From assembly GCA_004367505.1 (NCBI GenBank), contig SFCB01000262.1, positions 1 to 44,780 of the forward strand: a stretch of DNA of 44,780 bases, in the 5' to 3' direction. Position numbers and translations under genes: made by a program. Of the stretch, positions 6,413 to 21,297 are shown piece after piece. The number at the start of each line of letters is the position of its first letter. Position 1 is the first letter of the stretch. The notes beneath the pieces are model-generated. The model did no database searches, was not told the DNA's origin, and saw only the letters and a list, made by a program, of their open reading frames with translations. This stretch comes from Chloroflexi bacterium OHK40 (GTDB lineage Bacteria > Chloroflexota > Chloroflexia > Chloroflexales > Chloroflexaceae).

Positions 6413-7891
6413 CTATTCGTTACCGAGGATGCCCTCCAGCCGTGACGGCGACGGCTGGGCGGACCCGGCAGCCTCACCCTCGTCGCGACGATAGGCGATC
6501 CGCCCACTAACCATGGTGAGGATCACCTGGCCCTTCAGGCGCTGGCCCTGGAGCGGGGTACTCCGGCTCCGCGAAGCGAACTGGCTCGCATCGACTGTCC
6601 AGGCCCGGTCCGGATCGAAGATCACAATGTCGGCTCGCGAACCAGGCCGGAGCGTGGCCGGCGAGCGGCCGAGTACGCTGGCGGGTCCCTCGGTAAGCTT
6701 GGCAACCAGGTCGACCAGATCGAGCTCACCCCGATGAACCAGGGTCAGCACGAGGGCCAGGGCCGTCTCCAGCGCGGAGATCCCCGGGGCCGCCAGGCCG
6801 TACTCGCACTCTTTCTCCACCCGTGACTGGGGCGTATGGCCTGTAGCGATCGCGTCGATCGTGCCATCGCGCAGCCCTTCAAGTAGCGCCTCTACATCCT
6901 CCTCGCTACGCAGGGGCGGGCTCACGCGGGTGCTGGAGTCGTAGGGCGGCAGGAGCGCCGGGTCGAGCCAGGACGGAAGGCTGAGCTCCGGGTTCGGGTT
7001 GCGGCGACGGCGGGGCTTGTTCACAGGCGCGGCTGGCTCGGGCCGGGGAGCCAGGCTCCCGAGCACCCAGCGATCGGTGAGGGTGAGGTGGTGGGGCGAT
7101 ACCTCAGCCGTCACGTGAACACCCCGCGCCCGGGCGGCGCGGATCAGAGCTACGGCGCCGGCGGTGCTCACCTGGCAGAGGTGCAGGTGGCAGCCGGTAT
7201 CCTCGGCCAGGGCGATCTCGCGGGCCACGGCGGCCACTTCGGCGGCGGCGGGAGTACCGGGCAACCCCAGCCGCGTGCTCACCACCCCCTCGTGCATGGC
7301 CCAGCCGGCGCTGAGGCGCGGGTCATCACAGTGCGCCATGACGGGCAGGCCGAGCTCGGCGGCGTAGGCCATGGCGTTCCGCATCAGCGCAGCATCGGCC
7401 ACGGGCCGGCCGGCGTCGCTGAAGGCGATACAGCCGGCCTCGGCCAGCTCGCCGAGCTCGGCGAGGGCCCGCCCCTCCCGGCCTACCGTAAGCGCGCCCA
7501 CCACATCGACGTGAACGTGGCCATCGCGCCGGGCGAGCTCCTGCAGCAGGCGCACGGCTGCGGCACTATCGGGGGTGGGACGGGTGCTCGGCATCGCGCA
7601 GAGGGTGGTGAAGCCGCCACGGGCGGCCGCCAGCGTGCCAGTCGCTACTGTCTCTTTGTGCTCATCGCCAGGCTCGCGCAGATGGGCGTGCAGGTCGGTG
7701 AAGCCTGGGGCCACCACCGCGCCACGGGCATTGATCACCACCACGTCGTCGTCCGGCTGCTCCGTCTCAGCATGCAGCTCGGCGAGGTCAACCACGTGCT
7801 GCACAACGCCATCGGCCACCAGGATGTCGCCCACGGTGGCCACCCGCCGCGCCGGGTCGATGATCGAGCCACTCTTGATCAGGTATCGCAT
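6413..7891 (-). CDS. pyrC: Dihydroorotase-like protein, probably catalytically inactive (PyrC')
   Basis: A 492-residue amidohydrolase-fold protein of the class I dihydroorotase family. Family features are plain: DLHAHLREPG (H68, H70), AARGGFTT, a MAHC motif (H187), SPHHLTLTD, SPPLRSEED and DGTIDAIAT. Compared with the metal ligands of Bacillus subtilis PyrC (H59, H61, D151, H178, H231, D304), only H68, H70 and H187 remain. The bridging Asp is Ala160, the fourth His is Gln240 and the catalytic Asp is Gly351. Substrate-binding Asn residues are also Ser (102 and 324). About 40 extra residues, rich in Pro and Arg, follow LTD at 273. Known inactive PyrC' proteins of pseudomonads hold aspartate carbamoyltransferase together; the pyrR-pyrB-pyrC' order is the same here. 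The ATG at 7891 matches the family N-terminus (MRYLIKSG); the frame is open further upstream. Confidence 0.9.
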   Translation of the reverse strand: MRYLIKSGSIIDPARRVATVGDILVADGVVQHVVDLAELHAETEQPDDDVVVINARGAVVAPGFTDLHAHLREPGDEHKETVATGTLAAARGGFTTLCAMPSTRPTPDSAAAVRLLQELARRDGHVHVDVVGALTVGREGRALAELGELAEAGCIAFSDAGRPVADAALMRNAMAYAAELGLPVMAHCDDPRLSAGWAMHEGVVSTRLGLPGTPAAAEVAAVAREIALAEDTGCHLHLCQVSTAGAVALIRAARARGVHVTAEVSPHHLTLTDRWVLGSLAPRPEPAAPVNKPRRRRNPNPELSLPSWLDPALLPPYDSSTRVSPPLRSEEDVEALLEGLRDGTIDAIATGHTPQSRVEKECEYGLAAPGISALETALALVLTLVHRGELDLVDLVAKLTEGPASVLGRSPATLRPGSRADIVIFDPDRAWTVDASQFASRSRSTPLQGQRLKGQVILTMVSGRIAYRRDEGEAAGSAQPSPSRLEGILGNE

Positions 7892-7979: not shown

Positions 7980-9625
<1,646 letters not shown>

Positions 9626-9641
9626 TCATTCGCATGCTGGC

Positions 9642-9674
9642 TCCTTTACAGCCTCACAGGGCTGCATTAAAGGA
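9642..9674 (-). promoter_or_regulatory. PyrR-binding RNA hairpin (anti-antiterminator)
   Basis: The minus-strand RNA folds as a lower stem TCCTTTA/TAAAGGA and an upper stem CAGCC/GGCTG with loop CTGTGA. The pattern CAGnCCnGnGAGGCTG followed by AAGGA is the PyrR recognition motif known from Bacillus pyr leaders. It starts a few bases after the predicted transcription start and precedes the leader terminator, the standard order for PyrR attenuation. Confidence 0.88.
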
Positions 9675-9681
9675 CAGCGGC

Positions 9682-9710
9682 ATTGTAGCATCCCGTGTCT
9701 GGCGCGTCAA
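9682..9710 (-). promoter_or_regulatory. pyr operon promoter
   Basis: On the minus strand TTGACG (9705-9710) and TACAAT (9682-9687) are 17 bases apart, each with five of six consensus matches. Transcription would start at about 9675, right at the PyrR hairpin. Confidence 0.8.
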
Positions 9711-10145: not shown

Positions 10146-10277
10146 TTGACACCCACGGCGTGCTGGCGGGCAATGCGTTACGCCACACACGAACTGGTGC
10201 GCGCCTCCGTGCCAAAACATGGTAGGATGACCAGGGCCGGCCCCGTCCGGCACCCGCTGCGTCAGGGGATCACCTCC

Positions 10278-11417
10278 ATGCCCCGTGTGCTTTTGCTCCA
10301 CGCCTCCGTTGGCACTGGCCACAAGCGCGCCGCCGAGGCCCTCGCCACCGCCTTCACCCGCCGCCAGCCCGGCGAGGTGCGCGTCGAAGATGTGCTCGAC
10401 CATACCCCCCGGCTCTTCCGCGTGGCCTACGCCCGCTCTTACCTCGAACTGACCGACCGGGCCCCGCTGGTGTGGGGCTACTTCTATACCCAGACCAACG
10501 CCGACCCGAACCTGGCCGAGTTTACCAACAATGTGCGTAAGCTCGTGGAGAGCATCGGCACCAACGGCCTGAAGGATGTGCTGCGCTCCTTCGTGCCCGA
10601 GGTGATTATCTGCACCCACTTTCTCCCGATGGAGCTGCTGGTACGCTATAAGCGTAACGCCCAGCTCCCCCAGCCGATCTACTGCGTCATCACCGACTTT
10701 GCGGCCCACACCTTCTGGACCTACACCGAGATCGACCGCTACTTCGTGGCCGATACGCAAACCCGCGACCAGTTGATCGCCCGGGGCGTGACGCCCGCCC
10801 AGATCACCGTCAGCGGCATCCCGGTGGAGCCAGAGATTGCCGAGCCGAAGGACCGCCTGGAGATGCGCGCCAGCCACGGGCTCCCCACCGACGGAAGGGT
10901 GATCACCCTCTTCGGCGGCGGTGTGGACGACGACCACGTGCGCATGATCGTCCAGGGCCTGCTCCACCGCGAGATTGAGGCCACGCTGGTGGTGGTGGCG
11001 GGCCGCAACCCGACTCTGTTCGAAAGCCTGAGCGATCTGAGTTCTACGCCACGCCTGCGGCTGATCCTCCATGGGTATATTAACTTCGTGGACGATCTGA
11101 TCGTCGCCAGCGACCTGGTGATTACCAAGGCCGGTGGCCTGATCGTGAGTGAAGTGCTCGCCCGTGGCGTGCCGCTGGTGGTGATCGACCCGATCCCCGG
11201 CCAGGAGGAGTGGAACGCCGACTTTGTGGTCAGTTCGGGCGCTGGCGTCCAGCTGCGCATGGCCGAGTCGGTGCCTGCCACGGTGGAGCGGCTGCTCGGC
11301 CACCCCCACTTGCTCGAAGCGATGCGCGCGGCCGCGCGGCACGTTGGGCGGCCCCGGGCCGCCCTGGAGATCGCCGAGCAGGTGATTACCGACTACACCA
11401 GCCGGCGTTACCGGTGA
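10278..11417 (+). CDS. MGDG-synthase-like glycosyltransferase (processive diacylglycerol type)
   Basis: A 379-residue GT-B glycosyltransferase of the MGDG synthase/UgtP group, which moves galactose or glucose from a UDP-sugar to diacylglycerol at the membrane surface. The family N-terminus is clear (HASVGTGHKRAAEAL, residues 8-22), followed by DVLDHTPRLFR and a conserved STHxL-like ICTHFLP. The C-terminal half has LFGGG, a VASDLVITKAGGLIVSE donor-binding loop and PGQEEWNADF. The ATG at 10278 matches the family start; the frame is open far upstream but through repeat sequence. A related gene follows 132 bases downstream, probably in one transcript. Sugar and lipid specificity are unknown. Confidence 0.87.
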   Translation: MPRVLLLHASVGTGHKRAAEALATAFTRRQPGEVRVEDVLDHTPRLFRVAYARSYLELTDRAPLVWGYFYTQTNADPNLAEFTNNVRKLVESIGTNGLKDVLRSFVPEVIICTHFLPMELLVRYKRNAQLPQPIYCVITDFAAHTFWTYTEIDRYFVADTQTRDQLIARGVTPAQITVSGIPVEPEIAEPKDRLEMRASHGLPTDGRVITLFGGGVDDDHVRMIVQGLLHREIEATLVVVAGRNPTLFESLSDLSSTPRLRLILHGYINFVDDLIVASDLVITKAGGLIVSEVLARGVPLVVIDPIPGQEEWNADFVVSSGAGVQLRMAESVPATVERLLGHPHLLEAMRAAARHVGRPRAALEIAEQVITDYTSRRYR

Positions 11418-11549
11418 GCACCTGGCCCACCGGTGGCGCCGCTCCGGTTGTAGCCACCACCCGAGCACGCGCCCCGGCCCATGGGCGCCGCGCGGCACGT
11501 CCCGCGCACCTACCAGCATTGTGCGGTGCCAGATGAGGAGCGCGCCATC

Positions 11550-12764
11550 ATGACAGGGCAGCCGGTTGATGTGCTCTTTGCAATCTCCGACACCGGTGGC
11601 GGCCACCGCAGCGCCGCTGTGGCCATCAGTGCCGCCCTTGACCAGGCCAGCGGCGGTGACCTCAGTTGGTCGATCGATGATATCCTCCGCCTGACCGATT
11701 TCCCCGGCGTTCGTGGCGCACCCGAGCTCTACGACCAGCTCTCCACCCGCTGGTTGCGCCTCTACGATCTCACCTTCCAGCTCACGAACACGACCCGCAC
11801 CGTCGATGTACTCTCGCGTCTCGTCTTCGTGACGGCCCGCCGCAATCTGGCTCGCCTGCTGCGCGAGCGCCGGCCCCGCCTCGTGGTTTCCACCCACCCC
11901 CTCGTCCACCGCCTGGTGGTGGCCGCCCGGCGGGCCCTGCGCATGCCCTTCCGCGTGATCACTGTCGTGACCGACCTGGTGAGTCTCCATGCCTCGTGGA
12001 CCTTCCCCGGGGTGGATCTGGCCCTGGTGCCCACCGACGAAGCCTTCGAGATTATGTACCGGCGTGGTATGCGCCCGACCCAACTCCAGCGCACCGGCTT
12101 CCCGGTGCATCCGAAGTTCGCCGCCTACAGCGCCGACCAGGCCGCCGCGCGGCGCGAACTCGGCCTCGCCGACGATCGCTTTACCATTCTGGTGACCGCC
12201 GGGGGCGTGGGATCGGGCCGCCTGGCACCCCTGGTGCTGGAGCTGGAGCAGGCTTTCCCCACCAGGCAACTGCTCGTTGTCACCGGCAAGAACCGCGCGA
12301 TCTACGAAGAGCTGACTCGCCGCCATCGCTCGCCCCACAGCCATATCTACGGCTTTGTGAACAACATGGAGGCCCTGATGGCTGCGAGCGATCTAGTGGT
12401 TACCAAAGCCGGGCCCGGCACGCTGATGGAGGCCCTGGTGATGCGCAAGCCAGCCATCGTGACCGAGGCGGTGGGGATGCAGGAGCAGGGGAATATCGAT
12501 TTCGTGCTCAACTATGAGCTCGGGCTCTTTTGCCCAACCAACGAGCGGATTGTGGCCGCCGTGCGCGAGCTGGAGAATCCCCAGCGCTACGCCGAGACGG
12601 TCCGGCGCCTGGAGGGTGCGGTGCCTCGGGACGGGGCCGACCAGATCGCCAGGGTGATCAGCGAGCAGCTCGCGCTCGTAGGCAACCCGTCCGCCACCGT
12701 CACCCGTCGCCGCCTGCTCTCGCTCCCCGGCTGGCGCCACCTGCGCGGCCGGTGGGGGCGGTAA
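11550..12764 (+). CDS. Second MGDG-synthase-like glycosyltransferase
   Basis: A 404-residue relative of the preceding protein, with the same architecture: SDTGGGHRSAAVAI near the N-terminus, VSTHPLVHRL in the first domain, VTAGGVGSGRL at the start of the second domain and MAASDLVVTKAGPGTLMEAL in the donor-binding loop. The start at 11550 is chosen because GAGGAG lies about nine bases before it and the family begins here. The pair could add successive sugars to a glycolipid or use different acceptors. It ends 4 bases before a large hairpin and converges with the sortase gene. Confidence 0.87.
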   Translation: MTGQPVDVLFAISDTGGGHRSAAVAISAALDQASGGDLSWSIDDILRLTDFPGVRGAPELYDQLSTRWLRLYDLTFQLTNTTRTVDVLSRLVFVTARRNLARLLRERRPRLVVSTHPLVHRLVVAARRALRMPFRVITVVTDLVSLHASWTFPGVDLALVPTDEAFEIMYRRGMRPTQLQRTGFPVHPKFAAYSADQAAARRELGLADDRFTILVTAGGVGSGRLAPLVLELEQAFPTRQLLVVTGKNRAIYEELTRRHRSPHSHIYGFVNNMEALMAASDLVVTKAGPGTLMEALVMRKPAIVTEAVGMQEQGNIDFVLNYELGLFCPTNERIVAAVRELENPQRYAETVRRLEGAVPRDGADQIARVISEQLALVGNPSATVTRRRLLSLPGWRHLRGRWGR

Positions 12765-12768
12765 CAAT

Positions 12769-12803
12769 ATGGTAGAGCCGCCCCACGGGGGCGGCTCTAC
12801 CAT
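12769..12803. terminator. Bidirectional-type hairpin between convergent genes
   Basis: A perfect palindrome (ATGGTAGAGCCGCCCC and its complement, four-base loop ACGG) fills the gap between the stops of the plus-strand glycosyltransferase and minus-strand sortase genes. The 15-16 bp stem could end both transcripts, though no T tract follows. Confidence 0.6.
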
Positions 12804-12817
12804 GCATGGGGCGGCTC

Positions 12818-13675
12818 CTAGCGCACGGTCTGGGAGGCGATGTCGCGCGCTGGCTCCGGGGCCACCGTGAATGGGACGGCCCGCACAATCACGCGCTGGC
12901 TGAACTTGTCGGGGCCGGTGAGGGGCCAGCAGGTTACCAGGGTGACCACCTCACTATCGGTGGGGCCGATCAGCCGGGCGTTTTCGGCCCGCTGCTCGGG
13001 TGGCACGCCCTCTTCCTGCACCAGCAGGCGCTCCTTGACGGTGTAGAGGTATTGGCGACCGTCGCTGTAGATGATCACCGGGTCGCCAGGGCGCACGTAG
13101 AACAGGTCGCGGAAGACTTTGCCATAGCCGCCTACGTGGCCGGCTAGCACCACGTTGCCACCCTCGCCGGGGTTTGCGGAGCCACGGTGCTGGCCGACGG
13201 CATACTCGGCCACCTGCCAGACGGCGACCTGCTGGCCGTCCTGTTCCACGATCTCCCAGCCCACCTCGATCACCTTCGAGTCGACTGCGATGCTCGGAAT
13301 GATCACCCGCTCGACAGTTGAGGTGTGGGTGACGCTCGATGGCTCGGGCAGAGGCGATGCGATCTGGCCGCTGCTGAGCACCGGCGCGCTGAAGGATGGT
13401 AGGGCGGCAGGTGCGGCACTGCCCGTCCCGACGTCCAGGGAGGGACCGGGCCGCGCGGGGGCCTCTCCGATCACCACTCGCGGCGCGGCGATATCGCTGT
13501 CACCACGGGCGGCAAGGCGCAAATACTCGGCCTGGGCGTAAACCCCACCGACATAGGCGAGCAAGTAGAGCCCGCCAATCAGCATCAGGTTGCCGAGCGC
13601 CATGTAGCGGCGGCGGCGGCGTGTGGCCGGGGCGACCGCCGGGGGCGCCTCGGCGCGACGCGAGGTCGTTACCAT
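12818..13675 (-). CDS. Sortase family transpeptidase
   Basis: A 285-residue sortase, a cysteine transpeptidase that attaches secreted proteins to the cell surface. A cytoplasmic Arg-rich start and one membrane helix (residues about 25-47) are followed by a Pro/Ser-rich linker and the sortase barrel. Catalytic residues are in place: H180 in VLAGHVG, C249 in TLVTCWP and R261 in SQRVIVRA. The ATG at 13675 is used because upstream sequence is repeat DNA. No sorting-signal substrate gene is adjacent. The subclass cannot be fixed by eye; class D/E/F-like features are present. Confidence 0.9.
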   Translation of the reverse strand: MVTTSRRAEAPPAVAPATRRRRRYMALGNLMLIGGLYLLAYVGGVYAQAEYLRLAARGDSDIAAPRVVIGEAPARPGPSLDVGTGSAAPAALPSFSAPVLSSGQIASPLPEPSSVTHTSTVERVIIPSIAVDSKVIEVGWEIVEQDGQQVAVWQVAEYAVGQHRGSANPGEGGNVVLAGHVGGYGKVFRDLFYVRPGDPVIIYSDGRQYLYTVKERLLVQEEGVPPEQRAENARLIGPTDSEVVTLVTCWPLTGPDKFSQRVIVRAVPFTVAPEPARDIASQTVR

Positions 13676-13799
13676 GAGTATCCAGTGATCACGGCGCGAA
13701 CAGATCGCACCGGGCGGATCGATTGCGGCTATCACCCTCGTATACGGCGCGACACTGCGCCGTGGATGTGTTGAGTATAGCAAAGGCCCGCAACAGGCG

Positions 13800-14240
13800 C
13801 CAGGGTTCGGTGGAGTGCCGGATGTTGCTGCCCCCCCGCGTGCCGTAGCGCGGAAGCACGCGGCTCTTGGGCGGCGACGCCCGCCGGCGCGGACCCCCAC
13901 GGACAGCCTGCCCTCCGCTTGCACGGGGGTGGGCTGGCCCGCACGATGGGTCGCCCCAGCCGGCCCTGGGACCGTCGTTCCCGCGCAAGCGGAAACCCAG
14001 GTGCAGCAATGGGGGGCTGGCGGACGCGCTGTCGTCGTTCCCGCTTGCGCGGGAACCCAACCCCTGCGTTCCCGGGGACACACAGGCGCGATGGTAGCCC
14101 CGCTTGCGCGGGGGCGGGCTGGCGTGCACGATGGGTCGTCCCACCCGGCCCCCGCGTTCCCGGGGCACGCAGGCGCGATGGTAGCCCCGCTTGCGCGTTC
14201 AGGGGCGGACAGAACCCGTCTTGCGGGAGTTCAAGGGCAC
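13800..14240. repeat. Dispersed and tandem repeats in a gene-free spacer
   Basis: The 13676-14298 spacer has no convincing gene. It holds a 44-45 base element at 14066-14110 and again at 14154-14197 (GCGTTCCCGGGG...GGTAGCCCCGCTTGCGCG), two related GGGCTGG..GCACGATGGGTCG segments near 13930 and 14115, two GTCGTTCCCGC..GCGGGAACCCA palindromes (13974-14000, 14034-14059) and one truncated copy of the GGTTCAGGGGCGGTCAGAAC element (14193-14219). Confidence 0.8.
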
Positions 14241-14298
14241 CAAATAGGTGGACTTATGCGGGCGATTGGGCCTGGGGAGGCCCTTTGCGCCGGGGCGC

Positions 14299-15312
14299 TC
14301 ACCCTCGCCGCATCCGCCCCCAGAGATCGGTTGCGCGGGCCGCCAGGCCCAGCGGCAGAAGCCGGTCGATCAGGGCCAGCGGCAGCTTGAGCATGCGCGG
14401 TCTCACCCCGCCGAGCGTGAGCGCGTACACCAGGGAGCGGGCCGCCTCGGCCGGCCTTCCGACGCCCGCCTCCAGGTTTGCGATGGCCGCGTAGATATCC
14501 GCCAGGACGGCCCGCCGCTCGCCTGGCCCTCCCGCGTCGGCGAAGTACTCCTCGGCGATCGCCAGCCACTCGCCGTAGAATCCCGCCGGCTGAGCGACCG
14601 TCTTCGAGGCGCCGTGCAGCCGGTAGGTCGCCAGTTCGGCCCGCGTCTGCCGCAACGGCGCCAGCCGGATCGCCCGCGCCCAGTAGTCGGTGTCCATGCT
14701 GTAGCGTCGCCTCAGGCTCAGTGGCCCCACCCGCCCCACCAACTCGCGCCGCAAAAAGACGGTAGGCTGCGCGGGTAGCTCCAGCCGCAACACCGCCAGC
14801 GGTGTGTAGGGCCGTCCCGCGATTCGCCCCAGTGGACGCCCCGCCTCGTCGATATAGCGCGCATCGCCGTACACGGCGCCTGCCTCTGGTGCACGCCGCA
14901 ACGCCGCAACCTGCGTCGCCACCGCCCCCGGCAGGTAGGTGTCGTCCGCGTTCAGCCAGGCCAGTACCGCGCCACGGCAGCGGGCCCAGCCCTTGTTGAT
15001 CGCATCGGACTGGCCGTGGTCGGGCTCACTCAGCCAGTGCAGCCGGGGATCGTCCTCGTGGCTCCGTAGCACGTCGAGGGTCTCGTCACGGCTCCCGCCG
15101 TCGATCACCCACAGCTCAAGGTTCGGGTAATCCTGCCCGAGGATGCTGGCGATCGTCGCGCCGATGTAGCGGCCCTGGTTAAGCGAGGGCGTAACGACGC
15201 TCACCAGCGGGAGCGATGGGTCACGCACGACGGGTGGGGGCAAAGGGCCGGTAGTTGCATAGGCGGCCCAGAGCGGGTACTCGGCGGCGAGCGAGGGAGG
15301 GGAGTTGCTCAT
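14299..15312 (-). CDS. Family 2 glycosyltransferase
   Basis: A 337-residue GT-A fold glycosyltransferase. It starts the catalytic domain at SVVTPSLNQGRYIGATIASI (residues 38-57), has the acidic pair of WLNADDTYLPG (123-124) for metal-bound nucleotide sugar, and an EPDHGQSDAINKG stretch typical of the group that modifies surface glycans. The C-terminal 100 residues are helical and Leu-rich. The ATG at 15312 overlaps the stop of the DUF5672 gene (ATGA), so this is the last gene of the polysaccharide operon. Sugar and acceptor are unknown. Confidence 0.9.
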   Translation of the reverse strand: MSNSPPSLAAEYPLWAAYATTGPLPPPVVRDPSLPLVSVVTPSLNQGRYIGATIASILGQDYPNLELWVIDGGSRDETLDVLRSHEDDPRLHWLSEPDHGQSDAINKGWARCRGAVLAWLNADDTYLPGAVATQVAALRRAPEAGAVYGDARYIDEAGRPLGRIAGRPYTPLAVLRLELPAQPTVFLRRELVGRVGPLSLRRRYSMDTDYWARAIRLAPLRQTRAELATYRLHGASKTVAQPAGFYGEWLAIAEEYFADAGGPGERRAVLADIYAAIANLEAGVGRPAEAARSLVYALTLGGVRPRMLKLPLALIDRLLPLGLAARATDLWGRMRRG

Positions 15313-16079
15313 ATGCGGTAGCCGAAGTGGCGGAAGATCGGTCGCCAGAACCCCCGGCCGTGCCGGTCCCAGCCGTGGCAGCCGAAGGGCAGCGCGCCCC
15401 GGTTCAGCGCCAGGCAGGCAGCCGGCTCGGTCTCGAAGGCAAAGGCGAGCGCGCGCCGGTAGTCGGGGATGCGGAACGCAGGCCGGCGCCAGCGAACGTA
15501 GAGCGACCAGAAGTAGTCTTCGTTGATATCCCAGCGGCGGGCTTTGGCCCCGAGCAAGGCCAGGCTCTCCAGGTGGGCGCTCACATCGCGCAGCGAGAGG
15601 CCACCATTGCCCACGACATTGCGCAGGCCCCGCAGCCTCGGTCGGGCTAGCGGCCAGGTGCGGCAGATGTGCAGCATCACGCGGAGCAGGGAGCGGCCCA
15701 CCCACGGCGCGCCCACGTAGTCATAGCCGGCCGCGCACCACTCGGCGAGCCGATCGGCGAAGACGAAGGCGTCCAGTTGGTAGATCAGCAGATGGCGGTA
15801 GGCCAGGAAGCGCTCGTAGAAGCGTGGGTCCAGCAGCAGCCGGTTGTAGCCCGCGATCCCGGCGAAGTAGCCCGGCGCGAAGCGCTCCACGCCCACTATT
15901 CGCCCCGTGGTATAAGCGCCCAGCGCCAGACCCTCCGGCGCCACCAGGACAATCGGGTGGCGCCCCAGGATCTCCAGGCAGCGCGCAAAGGCCACCGCCT
16001 CGTCTGGGGTGGGTGCGGGGCGGTAGACGGGGATCACCACGACGACGGAAGCGGGCCAGGCGTTCAGTTGGTTTGCCAC
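15309..16079 (-). CDS. DUF5672-family protein, putative glycan-modifying enzyme
   Basis: A 256-residue protein matching the DUF5672 pattern as I recall it: VVVVIPVYRP at the start, HLLIYQLDAFVFADRLAEWC, GYDYVGAPW in the middle, GNGGLSLR, and PFGCHGW near the end. Such genes sit in glycan clusters and the fold resembles glycosyltransferases, but the reaction is not established. Translation appears to start at a GTG (16079) without a clear ribosome binding site. It lies 106 bases after the FkbM gene and is coupled by ATGA to the GT2 gene. Confidence 0.8.
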   Translation of the reverse strand: MANQLNAWPASVVVVIPVYRPAPTPDEAVAFARCLEILGRHPIVLVAPEGLALGAYTTGRIVGVERFAPGYFAGIAGYNRLLLDPRFYERFLAYRHLLIYQLDAFVFADRLAEWCAAGYDYVGAPWVGRSLLRVMLHICRTWPLARPRLRGLRNVVGNGGLSLRDVSAHLESLALLGAKARRWDINEDYFWSLYVRWRRPAFRIPDYRRALAFAFETEPAACLALNRGALPFGCHGWDRHGRGFWRPIFRHFGYRI

Positions 16080-16156
16080 GGGTCGGTTTGCGCCGGGCTA
16101 CACATCGGAAGGCCAGTACTCACCCGACGCCGGCTACACATGCGGCGCGCCCCTGC

Positions 16157-16177
16157 CCGCGCGACCAAACCGCGCGG
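16157..16177 (-). other. Hairpin in the only gap of the polysaccharide operon
   Basis: CCGCGCG and CGCGCGG form a 7 bp stem with a seven-base loop just after the FkbM stop. The same gap (16080-16185) also contains two copies of a GCCGG-CTACACAT repeat. The hairpin may protect the upstream mRNA or reduce readthrough to the last two genes. Confidence 0.4.
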
Positions 16178-16185
16178 AGCGGCTC

Positions 16186-16992
16186 TCAGCGATACGCGAA
16201 GATATCGGCCTGAAACTCCATCCCCAGCAGATCGGGCCGGGCGACGAACGGCCTGGGCGCGGCGTAGGCCTCGTGGAGCTGGTAGCGGAACCCGGCACCC
16301 GCCAGGATGGCCAGCACGCGGTGCAATGTCTGGGGCTGCGCCACCGGCGCGTGATACTCAACGAACAGGCGCTCTACGCGATCCAGGCGGTCGGCGCAGT
16401 CTTCAAGCACCACCGTCTCCGCACCCTCAATATCAAGCTTCAGCATATCCACCGGCTGGGTCAGCATATCCCGCAGGCGCAGCGCCGGCACCTCGATCAG
16501 CGGGCCGCGATCGCCGGGGAGGGCGATACGGCCCGAGAAAGCGCCCTCGGCCCAGAAGCGCAGGGTGGTGGTGCTCGTCCAGACGGCCTGATTATAGAGC
16601 GCAACGTCGTGGAGCGCAAAGGCGCGCAGATTCGTCACGAGCAGAGCGAAGAGCGCTGGGTCGGGCTCGAAGGCGATGAGCCGGCAGCCTGGATAGCGCC
16701 GCTTGAAGAAGATACAGCTCAGGCCGATGTTGGCGCCGCAATCGATGATCAGCGGATCGGGCCGGGAGACGACAAAGTCGTAGCTACGCCGGTCGAAGAT
16801 CGCCGCGACGCCCGCGAGGAAGCTGCCCGCGTCGGCGATCTGCACCCGCCGGTCGAAGAGTGTGGTGGTGGTGGGCCAGTGCCGGGGCAGCAGGCGCAGG
16901 CGCAGAGCCTCGGCTGCTCCGGGCCAGGGGCCGCCGCGCCGCGCCACGCCGGCGCCGATCGCGCGGGCAAGGCCCGAAAGCTGGCCCCTCAT
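16186..16992 (-). CDS. FkbM-family SAM-dependent methyltransferase
   Basis: A 268-residue methyltransferase. Motif I is LIIDCGANIGLS (about 81-92), motif II ends in FEPDP (about 108-112), and VDMLKLDIEGAE is the FkbM hallmark. Members O-methylate sugars or other small acceptors; in this cluster a sugar hydroxyl of the polysaccharide is the likely target. The ATG overlaps the stop of the preceding glycosyltransferase gene (ATGA). Confidence 0.9.
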   Translation of the reverse strand: MRGQLSGLARAIGAGVARRGGPWPGAAEALRLRLLPRHWPTTTTLFDRRVQIADAGSFLAGVAAIFDRRSYDFVVSRPDPLIIDCGANIGLSCIFFKRRYPGCRLIAFEPDPALFALLVTNLRAFALHDVALYNQAVWTSTTTLRFWAEGAFSGRIALPGDRGPLIEVPALRLRDMLTQPVDMLKLDIEGAETVVLEDCADRLDRVERLFVEYHAPVAQPQTLHRVLAILAGAGFRYQLHEAYAAPRPFVARPDLLGMEFQADIFAYR

Positions 16993-17921
16993 CGCGCCCT
17001 CCCCGCGAGCAAACGGCGCCGCAAGAGCAGGCGCAACCGGTTGCGGACACGCTGCATGGGCGAGAGCCGGAAGAAGTGCGTAAAGATATAGGCGTCGGCC
17101 CGGGCATCGCGCACCACAAAGGGCGGATGGACCAGCGGGAAGCGCATCGGCGCGGTGGGCATGTCGGCGTAGGGGCTATCGAAGGTGGTGTGGGTGGCCG
17201 CAGCGCCGTGGCCGATGTTGGCCACCAGGTTGAGGCGGGGCCGGATTACCAGGCCCCGCTGCAACCAGCAAGCGAGGAGCCAGCGCCGCCCCCAGTAGTT
17301 CGCCCGCCCGGCATACACATCCTCCAGGTGGGGCGTCCAGAAGCGGGCCTCCGCCTCGCTACCGAGCACATCGGCCAGCCAGCCGCCATCGCGGGCCGCG
17401 GGCCAGAGACGCATCTCGTGATCGTAGTGGCGCCAGGCGCGGCGCCAGGTGGCCCAGCCCCAGACGAGCATATAGTGCGAGAAGCTGTAACTGGCCGCGT
17501 CGCGGGCCCAGGGGACGATATTGACCCCACCGACCATCATGATGCGCTCGTCGTCGCGGTAGCGGGCCAGCAACTCCTCGCAGAAAGGGAAGAAGCTTGG
17601 GTGGGGCAGGCAATCGTCCTCAAGGATGATCGCAGTCTCCACCTGCTCGAAGACCTGGCTGATCCCGCTGGCCACGCGGTCGGCGAGGCCGCGATTCGTC
17701 GCGGCGTAGTCACGATGCACATCGCACGGCCAGTCTACCTGCTCCACCACGGCCCGGGCGGCTGCTACGAGCGCCACGTCGTCGGGCCGCTCGGCGCGAG
17801 GGCCGTCGGCGATGACGAAGAGCCGGTCCGGGCGGGCGCGCCGAATGGCCGCGAAGACCCGGGCAGTCTGCTCAGGCCGGTTGAAGATGATCAGAACGAC
17901 GGGGGTAGCGAGGCCGGGCAT
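16989..17921 (-). CDS. HlpA-like glycosyltransferase (GT-A fold)
   Basis: A 310-residue protein resembling the group annotated as hemolytic protein HlpA-like, which is a glycosyltransferase family despite its name. It begins TPVVLIIFNRPEQTARVFAAI, contains IILEDDCLPHPSFFPFCEELL with the acidic metal/nucleotide-sugar motif near residue 102, and has SHYMLVWGWATWRRAWRHYD in the acceptor half. The ATG at 17921 has AAGGA upstream and lies 14 bases after the flippase stop; the longer open frame upstream is antisense noise of that gene. Sugar specificity is unknown. Confidence 0.82.
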   Translation of the reverse strand: MPGLATPVVLIIFNRPEQTARVFAAIRRARPDRLFVIADGPRAERPDDVALVAAARAVVEQVDWPCDVHRDYAATNRGLADRVASGISQVFEQVETAIILEDDCLPHPSFFPFCEELLARYRDDERIMMVGGVNIVPWARDAASYSFSHYMLVWGWATWRRAWRHYDHEMRLWPAARDGGWLADVLGSEAEARFWTPHLEDVYAGRANYWGRRWLLACWLQRGLVIRPRLNLVANIGHGAAATHTTFDSPYADMPTAPMRFPLVHPPFVVRDARADAYIFTHFFRLSPMQRVRNRLRLLLRRRLLAGRAR

Positions 17922-17935
17922 AGGGTCCTTCTCCG

Positions 17936-19417
17936 CTAGGGGCCGGCCAGGGGCCTGGGCGCCGCAGGCCCGGCCGTTGGGGGTGTCGGCAGCCCGGCCA
18001 GCCGCAGGCACTCCACCACGGGCTCGCGGTTCAGCCGCCAGGAGAGCACCAGGTAGACGAGCGCGCCCACCGGCAGGGCGACGGCGAGGAGCGCCAGCGG
18101 CGGCAGGGCGGCGAGGAGCGCGCGCAGACCGAGGAGCGTGACGAGGAGCGCGGCGGCGCAGAGCGCCCCCGGCCCGACCGCCCGTAGCAGGTCCACTACG
18201 AGCAGGCCGATCAGCCGGAAGGGGAGCTTGAAGACCGGGTAGGCCAGCAGCAGCATCGACAGGGCGTAGGCCGTCGCCACACCGGTGATCCCGAAGGGAA
18301 GACCAAGCGCAAAGGCGGCCATCATCACCGCGCTCGATCCAACGCCCCAGGCCAGCATCAGATCGGTGCGGCCGCGGGCCTGGTAGATCAGCCCGGTGGC
18401 GTTGGTGAGCACCTGGAAAAGGCCCACGGGCGCGAGAATGACCAGCAGTGGCGCCACCGGCGCCCACTGCGAGCCAAGCACTGCTGCGACGAGTGGGTCG
18501 GCGAGTGCGCCAAGCCCCACGTAGACCGGCGCGGCCAGGAAGAAGAGCAGTGCGCTGAGCCGCAGGAAGATCTGGCCGAAGCGTGCCGCGTCGTCCACCT
18601 GGCTGAACACGGGGAAGAGCACCCGTGCGCCAACCTGGCCAAGCGTCTGGATCGGGTAGAACATGAGCCGGTAGGCCAGGGTGTAGAGCCCCAGGCTCGT
18701 GGGGCCGAGGAAGCGCCCGATGAGTAGGTAGTCGGCGTTGCGCGCAAAGTAGTTGACCAGATTGAAGCCCACCAGGCCGGTGCTGAAGCCACTCACCGCC
18801 GCCGCCGCGCCGCGATCGAAAACCAGGGCCGGCCGCCAGCGGCTCGCTAGCCAGGCCAGCGGCGTGGCCAGCGCGGTAGTCACGAGGCTTTGCGCCACCA
18901 GGCTCCACACGCCCGCGCCGGCCAGGGCGAGGGCCACGGCCACGCCCGCGCCGGCCAGGGAGGAGGCAAGCTCAACGCCAGCCAGCGCGCGGAAGGCTAC
19001 CGCCCGCTGGAGGAGCGCCTGCGGCACCACGCCGAGACCGCCGAGCACAAAGCCCGGGGCAAGGGCCCGCAGTACGGGCGTGAGAGCTGGCTCGCGGTAG
19101 AAGGCGGCAGCAAGGGGCGCGCCGACGATCACCACGGCGGCACAGGCAAGCCCGGCCCCGAGGTTGATCCAGAAGATGGTCGAGAGCAGCGCCGGTGAGA
19201 GCTCGCGACGCTGTACCACGGCGGCGCCCGTGCCTGGATCGCGGAAGAGCTCCAGGAATCCGGTGACCGTCAGGGCCATGCTGATCAGCCCGAAGCCGGC
19301 TGGCCCCACCAGCCGTGAGAGCAGCAGCGTGGTCGTGATCAGCAGCGCCTGGCGCACAAACTGGCTCAGCGCCGACCAGCGCACCCCTCTCGTAGCCGCG
19401 CCACGCAGGTCGCTCAT
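17936..19417 (-). CDS. Polysaccharide flippase (Wzx/MATE-like)
   Basis: A 493-residue integral membrane protein with about 12-14 hydrophobic segments. The opening GVRWSALSQFVRQALLITTTLLLSRLVGPAGFGLISMA is typical of the polysaccharide biosynthesis branch of the MOP superfamily, which flips lipid-linked glycan units across the membrane. It is placed between sugar-transfer genes, and its ATG overlaps the upstream stop (ATGA). The operon shows no Wzy-like polymerase, so the product may be a short glycan or be polymerised by a protein encoded elsewhere. Confidence 0.9.
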   Translation of the reverse strand: MSDLRGAATRGVRWSALSQFVRQALLITTTLLLSRLVGPAGFGLISMALTVTGFLELFRDPGTGAAVVQRRELSPALLSTIFWINLGAGLACAAVVIVGAPLAAAFYREPALTPVLRALAPGFVLGGLGVVPQALLQRAVAFRALAGVELASSLAGAGVAVALALAGAGVWSLVAQSLVTTALATPLAWLASRWRPALVFDRGAAAAVSGFSTGLVGFNLVNYFARNADYLLIGRFLGPTSLGLYTLAYRLMFYPIQTLGQVGARVLFPVFSQVDDAARFGQIFLRLSALLFFLAAPVYVGLGALADPLVAAVLGSQWAPVAPLLVILAPVGLFQVLTNATGLIYQARGRTDLMLAWGVGSSAVMMAAFALGLPFGITGVATAYALSMLLLAYPVFKLPFRLIGLLVVDLLRAVGPGALCAAALLVTLLGLRALLAALPPLALLAVALPVGALVYLVLSWRLNREPVVECLRLAGLPTPPTAGPAAPRPLAGP

Positions 19418-21297
19418 TGCCCTTCCCCGGCCCGCGCCGCCGCGATGATCGCCCAGAGCCGCGCCAGGGCCTCCCGCTGGTCGTAGCAGGCGGCGGCCCG
19501 AACGGCGGCCTGCCGCCCAAGTTGCCCGGCGAGCCCGGGCGATCCGGCGAGAGCGAGCATATGGACGGCCATCCCGGCAACGTCGCCCTCGTCAACGAGC
19601 AGGCCCGTCTCCCCTTCCACAACCACATCGACGATCCCGCCGTGGCGGGTGGCGATCACGGGCAAGCCGGCCGCAGCCGCCTCGAGGATAGCCACCGGGG
19701 TCCCCTCACTGTCGCCGTCGGAGGCCGTGATTGAGTGCTGAACAAAGGCGCGGACCGCGCGCATCAGGGCCGCCACCTCGCTGTGGGGGCGAGGCCCGAC
19801 GAAGGAGACAACCCCGGCGAGGCCGAGCGCCGCTGCCTGCTGGCGGCAGAACGCCAGGAGCGGCCCATCGCCCACGAAGGTCAGGTGGGCGCCGGGGCAG
19901 GCAGCAGCCACCCGGGCGAAGGCGAGCAGAGTGAGGTGGGGGCCTTTCTTCTCGATCATGCGGCCGACGGCCAGGAAGTGGGGTGGGGCCGCCGCCGGAT
20001 CGCCGGGGGTAAAGCGGCTGGGGTCGACGCCATAGGGCAGGTAGTGCAGTCGCTCCGGCAGCGCCCCGAGCGCCAGCAGTTGCCGCTCCATCGCCCGGGA
20101 GACGACCACGATCGCGGCTGCCTCGGCGAAAAGGCGCTGGTAGCCCGGCGCGAAGGCCGCCAGTGTGGGCCGCTGGTAGGCGTCCATGCCATGGAAGTGA
20201 ACCACCAGGGGCACCCCGGCCCGCCTGCAGGCGGCAGCCACCTCGGCGCCGGTGGGGCCATACTCGGCCAGCACCGCCGCAAAGCGGCCCCGGCGCAGGT
20301 AGACCGCCAGCGCCATATCGGTGAACAGGCGGAGCGGGAGCCTCAGCGCGGCGGGGAGCCGGGCGAGATTGCGGCGGGCCAGGCCCAGCGGTGGTGGCAG
20401 GAAGGGGCGCCCATCGTCGCGGCGCTCGGGAAACCAGCCCCCATAGAGCGCGCGCACCGTTGCGGGGAGTTTCTCAACGTGGGCGCGGATGAAGCTCTCG
20501 GAATACACCCCGTCGTTGGGCTGGATCACGCAGAGCCGGGGGCCAGCCTGGGGCAGCAGCCATCCTGGCCGCGCCACACGCACGCCCAGGCGCAGCCGAA
20601 CCAGCCGCTGCAGGGCGCCCACCGGTGGGCGGCGGAGCGGGGACGGGGCGGGCCTGCGCGCCGGCCCACCCGGCAGCGTGATCGCTGCGTGGAGGTAGTC
20701 GCCGGGGTGCCAGATCGGCACCTCGCGGTAATCAAGCAGCGTACCGCCCACCTCCGCAGCGAGGCGCTCCAGGTCGGCCGGGGTGACGTCCTCGTCCACA
20801 GGCTGCAGACCGGCCGGGCGCTCCTCGCGTAGCCAGCGCTGGTGAGCGGGCGTGGGGCAGCTAAGGACAAGCCGTCCACCGGGGGCGAGGGCCCGGCGGA
20901 GCAACTCGTGGAGGCGCGGGCGCTCGGCCAGAGGCACGTGCTCATACAGATCAAGGAGCACGATCGCGTCGTAGTGGCGCTCGGGCAACGGCCAGGCGCC
21001 CACGTCGGCAGCCAGAAAGCGCAGGCCGGGGCGGCTGAAGAGGCGGGTGGCTACAGCTACATTGCGCGGGCTGAGGTCCACGCCGAGCACCTCGGCCCGT
21101 GGGAACCGGCGGCGGAGCATGTGCGAGGACCAGCCGATGCCGCAGCCGAGATCAAGGATGGCGCGGGCGCCAGACGGGGTGGCGGCGAGCGCGTAGGCTA
21201 CTGCGGCATCGGCGCGCGGGTTGCCATAGACCATATCCGCCAGCAGCCGACCTGTGAAATCATCGTAGAAGGGGCGAGCCGCTGGCGGGGCGCTCAT
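19414..21297 (-). CDS. Methyltransferase-glycosyltransferase (GT4) fusion
   Basis: A 627-residue two-domain protein. Residues about 1-200 are a class I SAM methyltransferase: ILDLGCGIGWSSHMLRRRFP (47-66), LGVDLSP (71-77) and DAIVLLDLYEHVPLAERPR. From about 255 there is a GT-B glycosyltransferase of family 4: VVSRAMERQLLALG, YLPYGVDPSRF, VGRMIEKKGPH, an E-x7-E motif in SEGTPVAILEAAAAG and TRHGGIVDVVVEGETGLL. One chain could therefore add a sugar and methylate it or the acceptor. It is the first gene of the polysaccharide operon; a candidate promoter lies about 175 bases upstream. Confidence 0.9.
   Translation of the reverse strand: MSAPPAARPFYDDFTGRLLADMVYGNPRADAAVAYALAATPSGARAILDLGCGIGWSSHMLRRRFPRAEVLGVDLSPRNVAVATRLFSRPGLRFLAADVGAWPLPERHYDAIVLLDLYEHVPLAERPRLHELLRRALAPGGRLVLSCPTPAHQRWLREERPAGLQPVDEDVTPADLERLAAEVGGTLLDYREVPIWHPGDYLHAAITLPGGPARRPAPSPLRRPPVGALQRLVRLRLGVRVARPGWLLPQAGPRLCVIQPNDGVYSESFIRAHVEKLPATVRALYGGWFPERRDDGRPFLPPPLGLARRNLARLPAALRLPLRLFTDMALAVYLRRGRFAAVLAEYGPTGAEVAAACRRAGVPLVVHFHGMDAYQRPTLAAFAPGYQRLFAEAAAIVVVSRAMERQLLALGALPERLHYLPYGVDPSRFTPGDPAAAPPHFLAVGRMIEKKGPHLTLLAFARVAAACPGAHLTFVGDGPLLAFCRQQAAALGLAGVVSFVGPRPHSEVAALMRAVRAFVQHSITASDGDSEGTPVAILEAAAAGLPVIATRHGGIVDVVVEGETGLLVDEGDVAGMAVHMLALAGSPGLAGQLGRQAAVRAAACYDQREALARLWAIIAAARAGEGQ

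Follow-up and report, generated by a model that had tools for sequence, protein, structure and literature searches.

A putative pseudo-dihydroorotase beside aspartate carbamoyltransferase in the Chloroflexales, arisen independently of proteobacterial PyrC′

The window analysed was the whole 44,780-nucleotide stretch of contig SFCB01000262.1 of Chloroflexi bacterium OHK40, in which a promoter-like site, a putative PyrR-binding attenuator leader, pyrR, pyrB and a gene for a putative pseudo-dihydroorotase (pyrC′) follow one another along the minus strand. The promoter-like site (TTGACG-17-TACAAT with TG, positions 9682–9710) gave 10 of 12 matches in a consensus scan, with 0.4 chance occurrences expected in the region, and lies immediately upstream of the leader (9555–9677), which contains an anti-antiterminator hairpin and a terminator-like stem. 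The leader matched Rfam RF00515 over the full length of the model, yet at 37.4 bits (E 0.0038) it fell under the gathering score of 54. The 3′ end of pyrR (8909–9460, pyr operon regulator/uracil phosphoribosyltransferase; PRK05205, 247 bits, above cut-off) overlaps the start of pyrB (7980–8912, aspartate carbamoyltransferase (ATCase) catalytic chain, 310 aa; PRK00856, 394 bits, above cut-off). These features, all preceding pyrC′, agree with the regulated pyrR–pyrB operon proposed in a preliminary description of this DNA. Elsewhere in the window, positions 10200–21297 hold two adjacent MGDG-synthase-like glycosyltransferases (the first recognized by eye, the second by Pfam) and, further on, a sortase and a cluster for polysaccharide synthesis (flippase, glycosyltransferases).

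The pyrC′ ORF (6413–7891) starts with ATG at position 7891 and encodes 492 aa; it matched TIGR00857 with 369 bits (cut-off 279), in keeping with the earlier view that the gene is full length, and was the single match above cut-off in a profile search of the source genome. The neighbouring PyrB keeps all its catalytic residues, the 13 catalytic positions being invariant in 56 genomes (the source genome and 55 relatives). A profile search for pyrI found none in 82 of 82 Chloroflexales genomes, whereas six of 14 reference genomes gave a match above cut-off in the same search. The ATCase class could not be read off the PyrB sequence, as its best solved match, the class C enzyme of B. subtilis, was only narrowly ahead of the class A enzyme of A. 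aeolicus.

Active-site residues of PyrC′ were mapped by alignment to the Bacillus anthracis dihydroorotase (DHOase) 3MPG and by a family alignment. Columns carry what we take to be the B. subtilis PyrC numbering, and the motifs agree with those of the solved B. anthracis sequence. Both alignments upheld, residue by residue, the loss of three of the six metal ligands that had been noticed from the sequence (D151 to Ala160, H231 to Gln240 and D304 to Gly351); H59, H61 and H178 are retained as H68, H70 and H187. The preliminary description had also listed two substrate-binding Asn replaced by Ser and an insertion after the LTD motif. Both replacements are present, but only N93 to Ser102 is diagnostic, since Ser at the position of N277 (Ser324) also occurs in 26 of 28 intact relatives. 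The insertion likewise exists, with 26–58 aa against eight in B. subtilis, but PyrC proteins with an intact site carry the loop too; N277S and the loop were therefore dismissed as signs of inactivity. A further part of the broken site, the replacement of the substrate residue H308 by Gln355, had been missed. An AlphaFold2 model of PyrC′ showed a type I DHOase fold (pTM 0.84), with low confidence in the inserted and active-site loops, and its closest PDB structures were the B. anthracis and Aquifex aeolicus DHOases.

In the A. aeolicus enzyme (DHO) zinc is held by the equivalents of H59, H61 and D151, and the β-site His residues equivalent to H178 and H231 could be changed to Ala without effect (PMC3880350). 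As these are dispensable there, H231Q alone proves nothing, and it is D151A and D304G, together with N93S and H308Q, on which a lack of activity can be argued. Activity has been reported for a PyrC paralogue of Pseudomonas that lacks conserved zinc residues (PMC2770081). The residues expected of an active type I DHOase (α-site H59, H61 and D151, and catalytic D304) are incomplete in PyrC′ owing to D151A and D304G, and we infer from the sequence that the protein is a catalytically inactive pseudo-dihydroorotase.

A second pyrC, the lack of which was, together with measured activity of the protein, to count against this reading according to the preliminary description, was found on another contig of the source genome (G000:C226:27336-28319). 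It encodes a type II (E. coli-type) PyrC (369 bits, cut-off 293) in which the nine catalytic equivalents H16, H18, R20, N44, K102, H139, H177, D250 and H254 are all present, as they are in each of the 39 type II sequences analysed from the order. Its best solved relative was the Campylobacter jejuni dihydroorotase 3PNU, with 398 bits compared with 226–229 bits for the E. coli enzyme, which suggests a lateral origin. Both genes also occur together in four single-contig genomes (G030, G042, G043 and G045), so that assembly contamination does not explain the pair. Three other candidates for the active DHOase of the source genome were set aside: an allantoinase (contig C94), a dihydropyrimidinase (C15) and an amidohydrolase (C213) that scored below the curated cut-offs of all the families shown. 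The last (L002, G000:C213:2784-4115) stands between the allantoinase and hydantoinase families and adjoins a putative desuccinylase-like gene.

The six ligands (HHDHHD) of each PyrC orthologue were then scored against the presence of type II PyrC in 82 Chloroflexales genomes. PyrC was broken in 35 of 35 scorable genomes with a full-length type II PyrC and intact in 28 of the 30 scorable genomes without one (Fisher p 2e-16, a value that is blind to phylogeny, rests on few independent events and is not to be taken literally). In one further genome (G022), PyrC was broken and part of a type II gene lay at the edge of a contig. The first of the two exceptions, G051, is an assembly 84 % complete, and all four of its congeners have the type II gene; G001, whose PyrC has D151A and N93D, also encodes a PRK09236 dihydroorotase (724 bits, cut-off 535), the only one above cut-off among the 82 genomes. 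When any second DHOase is counted, the association had no genuine exception in complete genomes that carry the orthologue. The G001 gene (L141, G001:C131:5496-6827) accompanies the mildest PyrC loss, and this genome may possibly represent an early stage of the same replacement.

Named relatives with a broken PyrC included Candidatus Oscillochloris fontis, Oscillochloris sp. ZM17-4 and Roseiflexus sp., and those with an intact one a Kouleothrix sp. MAG and Chloroflexi bacterium AL-N1. The replacements varied by lineage, with G, A or E at D151, Q, N, R or I at H231, and G, N or S at D304. Changes in the Roseiflexus-like genomes (L030, L031, L035, L092, L093 and L095) were limited to D151E, N93D and H308Q; H59, H61, H178, H231 and D304 are retained in this clade, which also has type II PyrC, and to judge by these residues its PyrC may still bind metal.

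Broken copies of the family to which the source genome belongs formed a clade (support 96 and 99) beside an intact clade of that family in the PyrB and PyrC trees, and another Chloroflexales family likewise held both broken and intact PyrC. Four state changes were needed under parsimony. A single broken clade for both families, and with it one common loss, was rejected only marginally (AU p 0.047 with catalytic columns masked). In a broader tree every Chloroflexales PyrC fell within Chloroflexota PyrC (100/98), and the broken PyrC of Rhodospirillales, Kordiimonas and a Pseudomonadales MAG, the last standing in for the canonical Pseudomonas PyrC′ sequence that was absent from the set, formed a clade of their own (99/96). 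Placing all broken forms in one clade was rejected by the AU test (p 4e-54), and neither tree nor test gave the Chloroflexales proteins a place by descent in the proteobacterial PyrC′ clade. Whether the origin is independent or shared with pseudomonads, a question raised at the outset, is therefore answered: the broken PyrC of the Chloroflexales arose independently of proteobacterial PyrC′, and inactivation was probably repeated within the order.

Type II PyrC was present in four of the six proteobacterial genomes with a broken PyrC and absent from the intact-PyrC non-Chloroflexales genomes tested. In the type II tree the two Chloroflexales families were separate with moderate support (92/78); the order may have acquired the gene once, with differential loss, or several times. 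Outside these groups, the PyrC of the Opitutales MAG OFTM265 (L196) has D151G and D304G and is sister to intact Puniceicoccaceae PyrC (100/100); it is probably a further independent pseudo-DHOase, and no TIGR00856 match was found in that MAG.

Within genera, dN/dS of broken PyrC was 0.03–0.135, compared with 0.03–0.10 for PyrB, 0.04–0.125 for type II PyrC and 0.02–0.10 for intact PyrC of the same order. Intact copies shared 110 invariant columns; of these, broken copies retained the nine catalytic ones at a mean of 46 % and the other 101 at 94 %, 55 of the 101 being fully retained. This is the pattern expected if the active site alone was released and the fold and surfaces are still needed.

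The pyrB gene lies directly upstream of the PyrC orthologue in nearly all genomes; in the Herpetosiphon-like g20 genomes, which have an intact PyrC, the two genes are not neighbours. Where pyrB occurred without a PyrC gene, the contig stops beside pyrB (G002, G011 and G064) or, in G066, fewer than 500 bases of contig remain, too little to tell. G066 aside, a PyrC gene accompanied the PyrB subfamily of the source genome wherever the contig was unbroken. No PyrC orthologue was found in family f2, whose unrelated PyrB shares 35–38 % identity; in G031, G025 and G037 of this family a shorter dihydroorotase is encoded close to pyrB. In this family (L147, L156, L157 and L159) the short enzyme has Lys at the metal-bridging site. 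A mirror-tree test of PyrB against PyrC′ given type II yielded a partial r of 0.46, too weak to be used as evidence.

The closest counterparts are the PyrC′ (pDHO, PyrX) of Pseudomonas and smc01361 of Sinorhizobium meliloti, which have, like the protein described here, broken metal and substrate sites, a neighbouring pyrB and a separate PyrC, which is active in Pseudomonas and S. meliloti. In P. aeruginosa, ATCase activity depends on pDHO, for which a scaffold role has been shown (class A2; PMC7053772), and a class A2-like scaffold role has been proposed for smc01361/PyrX (PMC5929573). The source genome shares the class A2 traits: a type I DHOase homologue stripped of metal ligands and substrate residues, adjacent to pyrB with no pyrI, and a separate DHOase with complete active-site residues, as judged by alignment. 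Besides their separate origin, the Chloroflexales copies differ in mostly keeping HxH, where the Rhodospirillales have RxQ, and, compared with Pseudomonas and S. meliloti, in having the long disordered inserted loop and a pyrR operon. The class A1 DHO-ATC of A. aeolicus (3D6N, 4BJH; PMC3880350) has the same type I fold (TM 0.79–0.80 by query) and unites DHO and ATC in one dodecamer, but its DHO is catalytic, whereas in the PyrC′ of the source genome both the zinc-binding and the catalytic Asp are gone. The pseudo-DHO domain of fungal CAD-like proteins (URA2; PMC7053772) is similarly an inactive DHOase homologue that is physically joined to ATCase, and there too the active enzyme is encoded elsewhere; in these proteins, however, the domain is fused into a single multifunctional eukaryotic polypeptide and the Chloroflexales have separate bacterial genes. 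No published report of a pseudo-PyrC in the Chloroflexota was found in the open-licence literature.

The likeness to the inactive PyrC′ of pseudomonads that had been drawn from the sequence is thus strengthened by the second DHOase and by the order-wide co-occurrence, the complex with PyrB being presumed; by analogy, PyrC′ most likely works as the scaffold of a class A2 ATCase. We think it very probable that a type II DHOase took over catalysis and that the old PyrC lost its activity and was kept as a structural partner of PyrB. The ancestral lineage would have had an active type I PyrC sharing an operon with PyrB, and an unlinked type II dihydroorotase, now at another locus, would have taken over the reaction. 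The old PyrC would then have lost its catalytic residues, the rest of the protein being kept under purifying selection; both are seen in the present data. PyrC′ would have been retained because PyrB depends on it structurally, on the model of a class A dodecamer in which two PyrB trimers are held by three PyrC dimers, and the operon would now specify a class A2-like ATCase. At least two lineages of the order would have followed this path independently of each other.

Strong purifying selection could also mean that PyrC′ now catalyses a reaction on a different substrate, with an altered metal site, and HxH is indeed kept in many copies, with the Roseiflexus-like clade (D151E) perhaps still able to hold a metal. 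We consider this improbable, however, because the ligand positions differ by lineage without a new conserved set and the non-catalytic invariant columns are kept, and because PyrC′ always occurs with its cognate pyrB and is missing where PyrB is of another subfamily. The emptied site or the dimer might instead bind nucleotides and control ATCase in place of PyrI, which would suit the general absence of pyrI; such a mainly regulatory PyrC′, which we credit a shade less, is opposed by the variability of the former active-site positions, with no new conserved pocket, and by the PyrR control already in the operon, although regulation would be compatible with scaffolding.

With a redundant catalyst in the genome, PyrC might be a relic heading for pseudogene status after replacement, but the selection data already contradict this: frames are full length across the order, dN/dS is low, non-catalytic invariant residues are retained, and the gene is present, G066 aside, wherever this PyrB subfamily occurs on an unbroken contig. 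We accordingly regard the relic as highly improbable, and give as little credence to a PyrC′ that is still an active DHOase through a different metal arrangement, with type II as an auxiliary isozyme. Although a single metal suffices for the A. aeolicus DHO, which also functions when its two β-site His are missing (PMC3880350), the source protein lacks α-site D151, catalytic D304 and the substrate residues N93 and H308, and it would be left unexplained why a second DHOase accompanies a broken PyrC almost without exception.

Retention of PyrC′ as a structural partner of PyrB may be an instance of a wider rule, to which we incline with some reserve: once a second DHOase of any type is gained, a PyrB-bound PyrC would lose catalysis and stay as a scaffold, a one-way passage from class A1 to class A2 taken at least two and probably at least three times in the Chloroflexales, with two replacement enzymes, and separately in the Proteobacteria. 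The order offers a natural experiment on the passage from enzyme to structural pseudoenzyme, with sister clades of one family carrying the intact or the broken gene, loss coinciding with gain of the replacement enzyme, and broken copies remaining under selection. The PyrC labelled dihydroorotase in many Chloroflexota, for example Oscillochloris and Roseiflexus, is probably not a dihydroorotase, and the ATCase of the Chloroflexales should be a class A complex.
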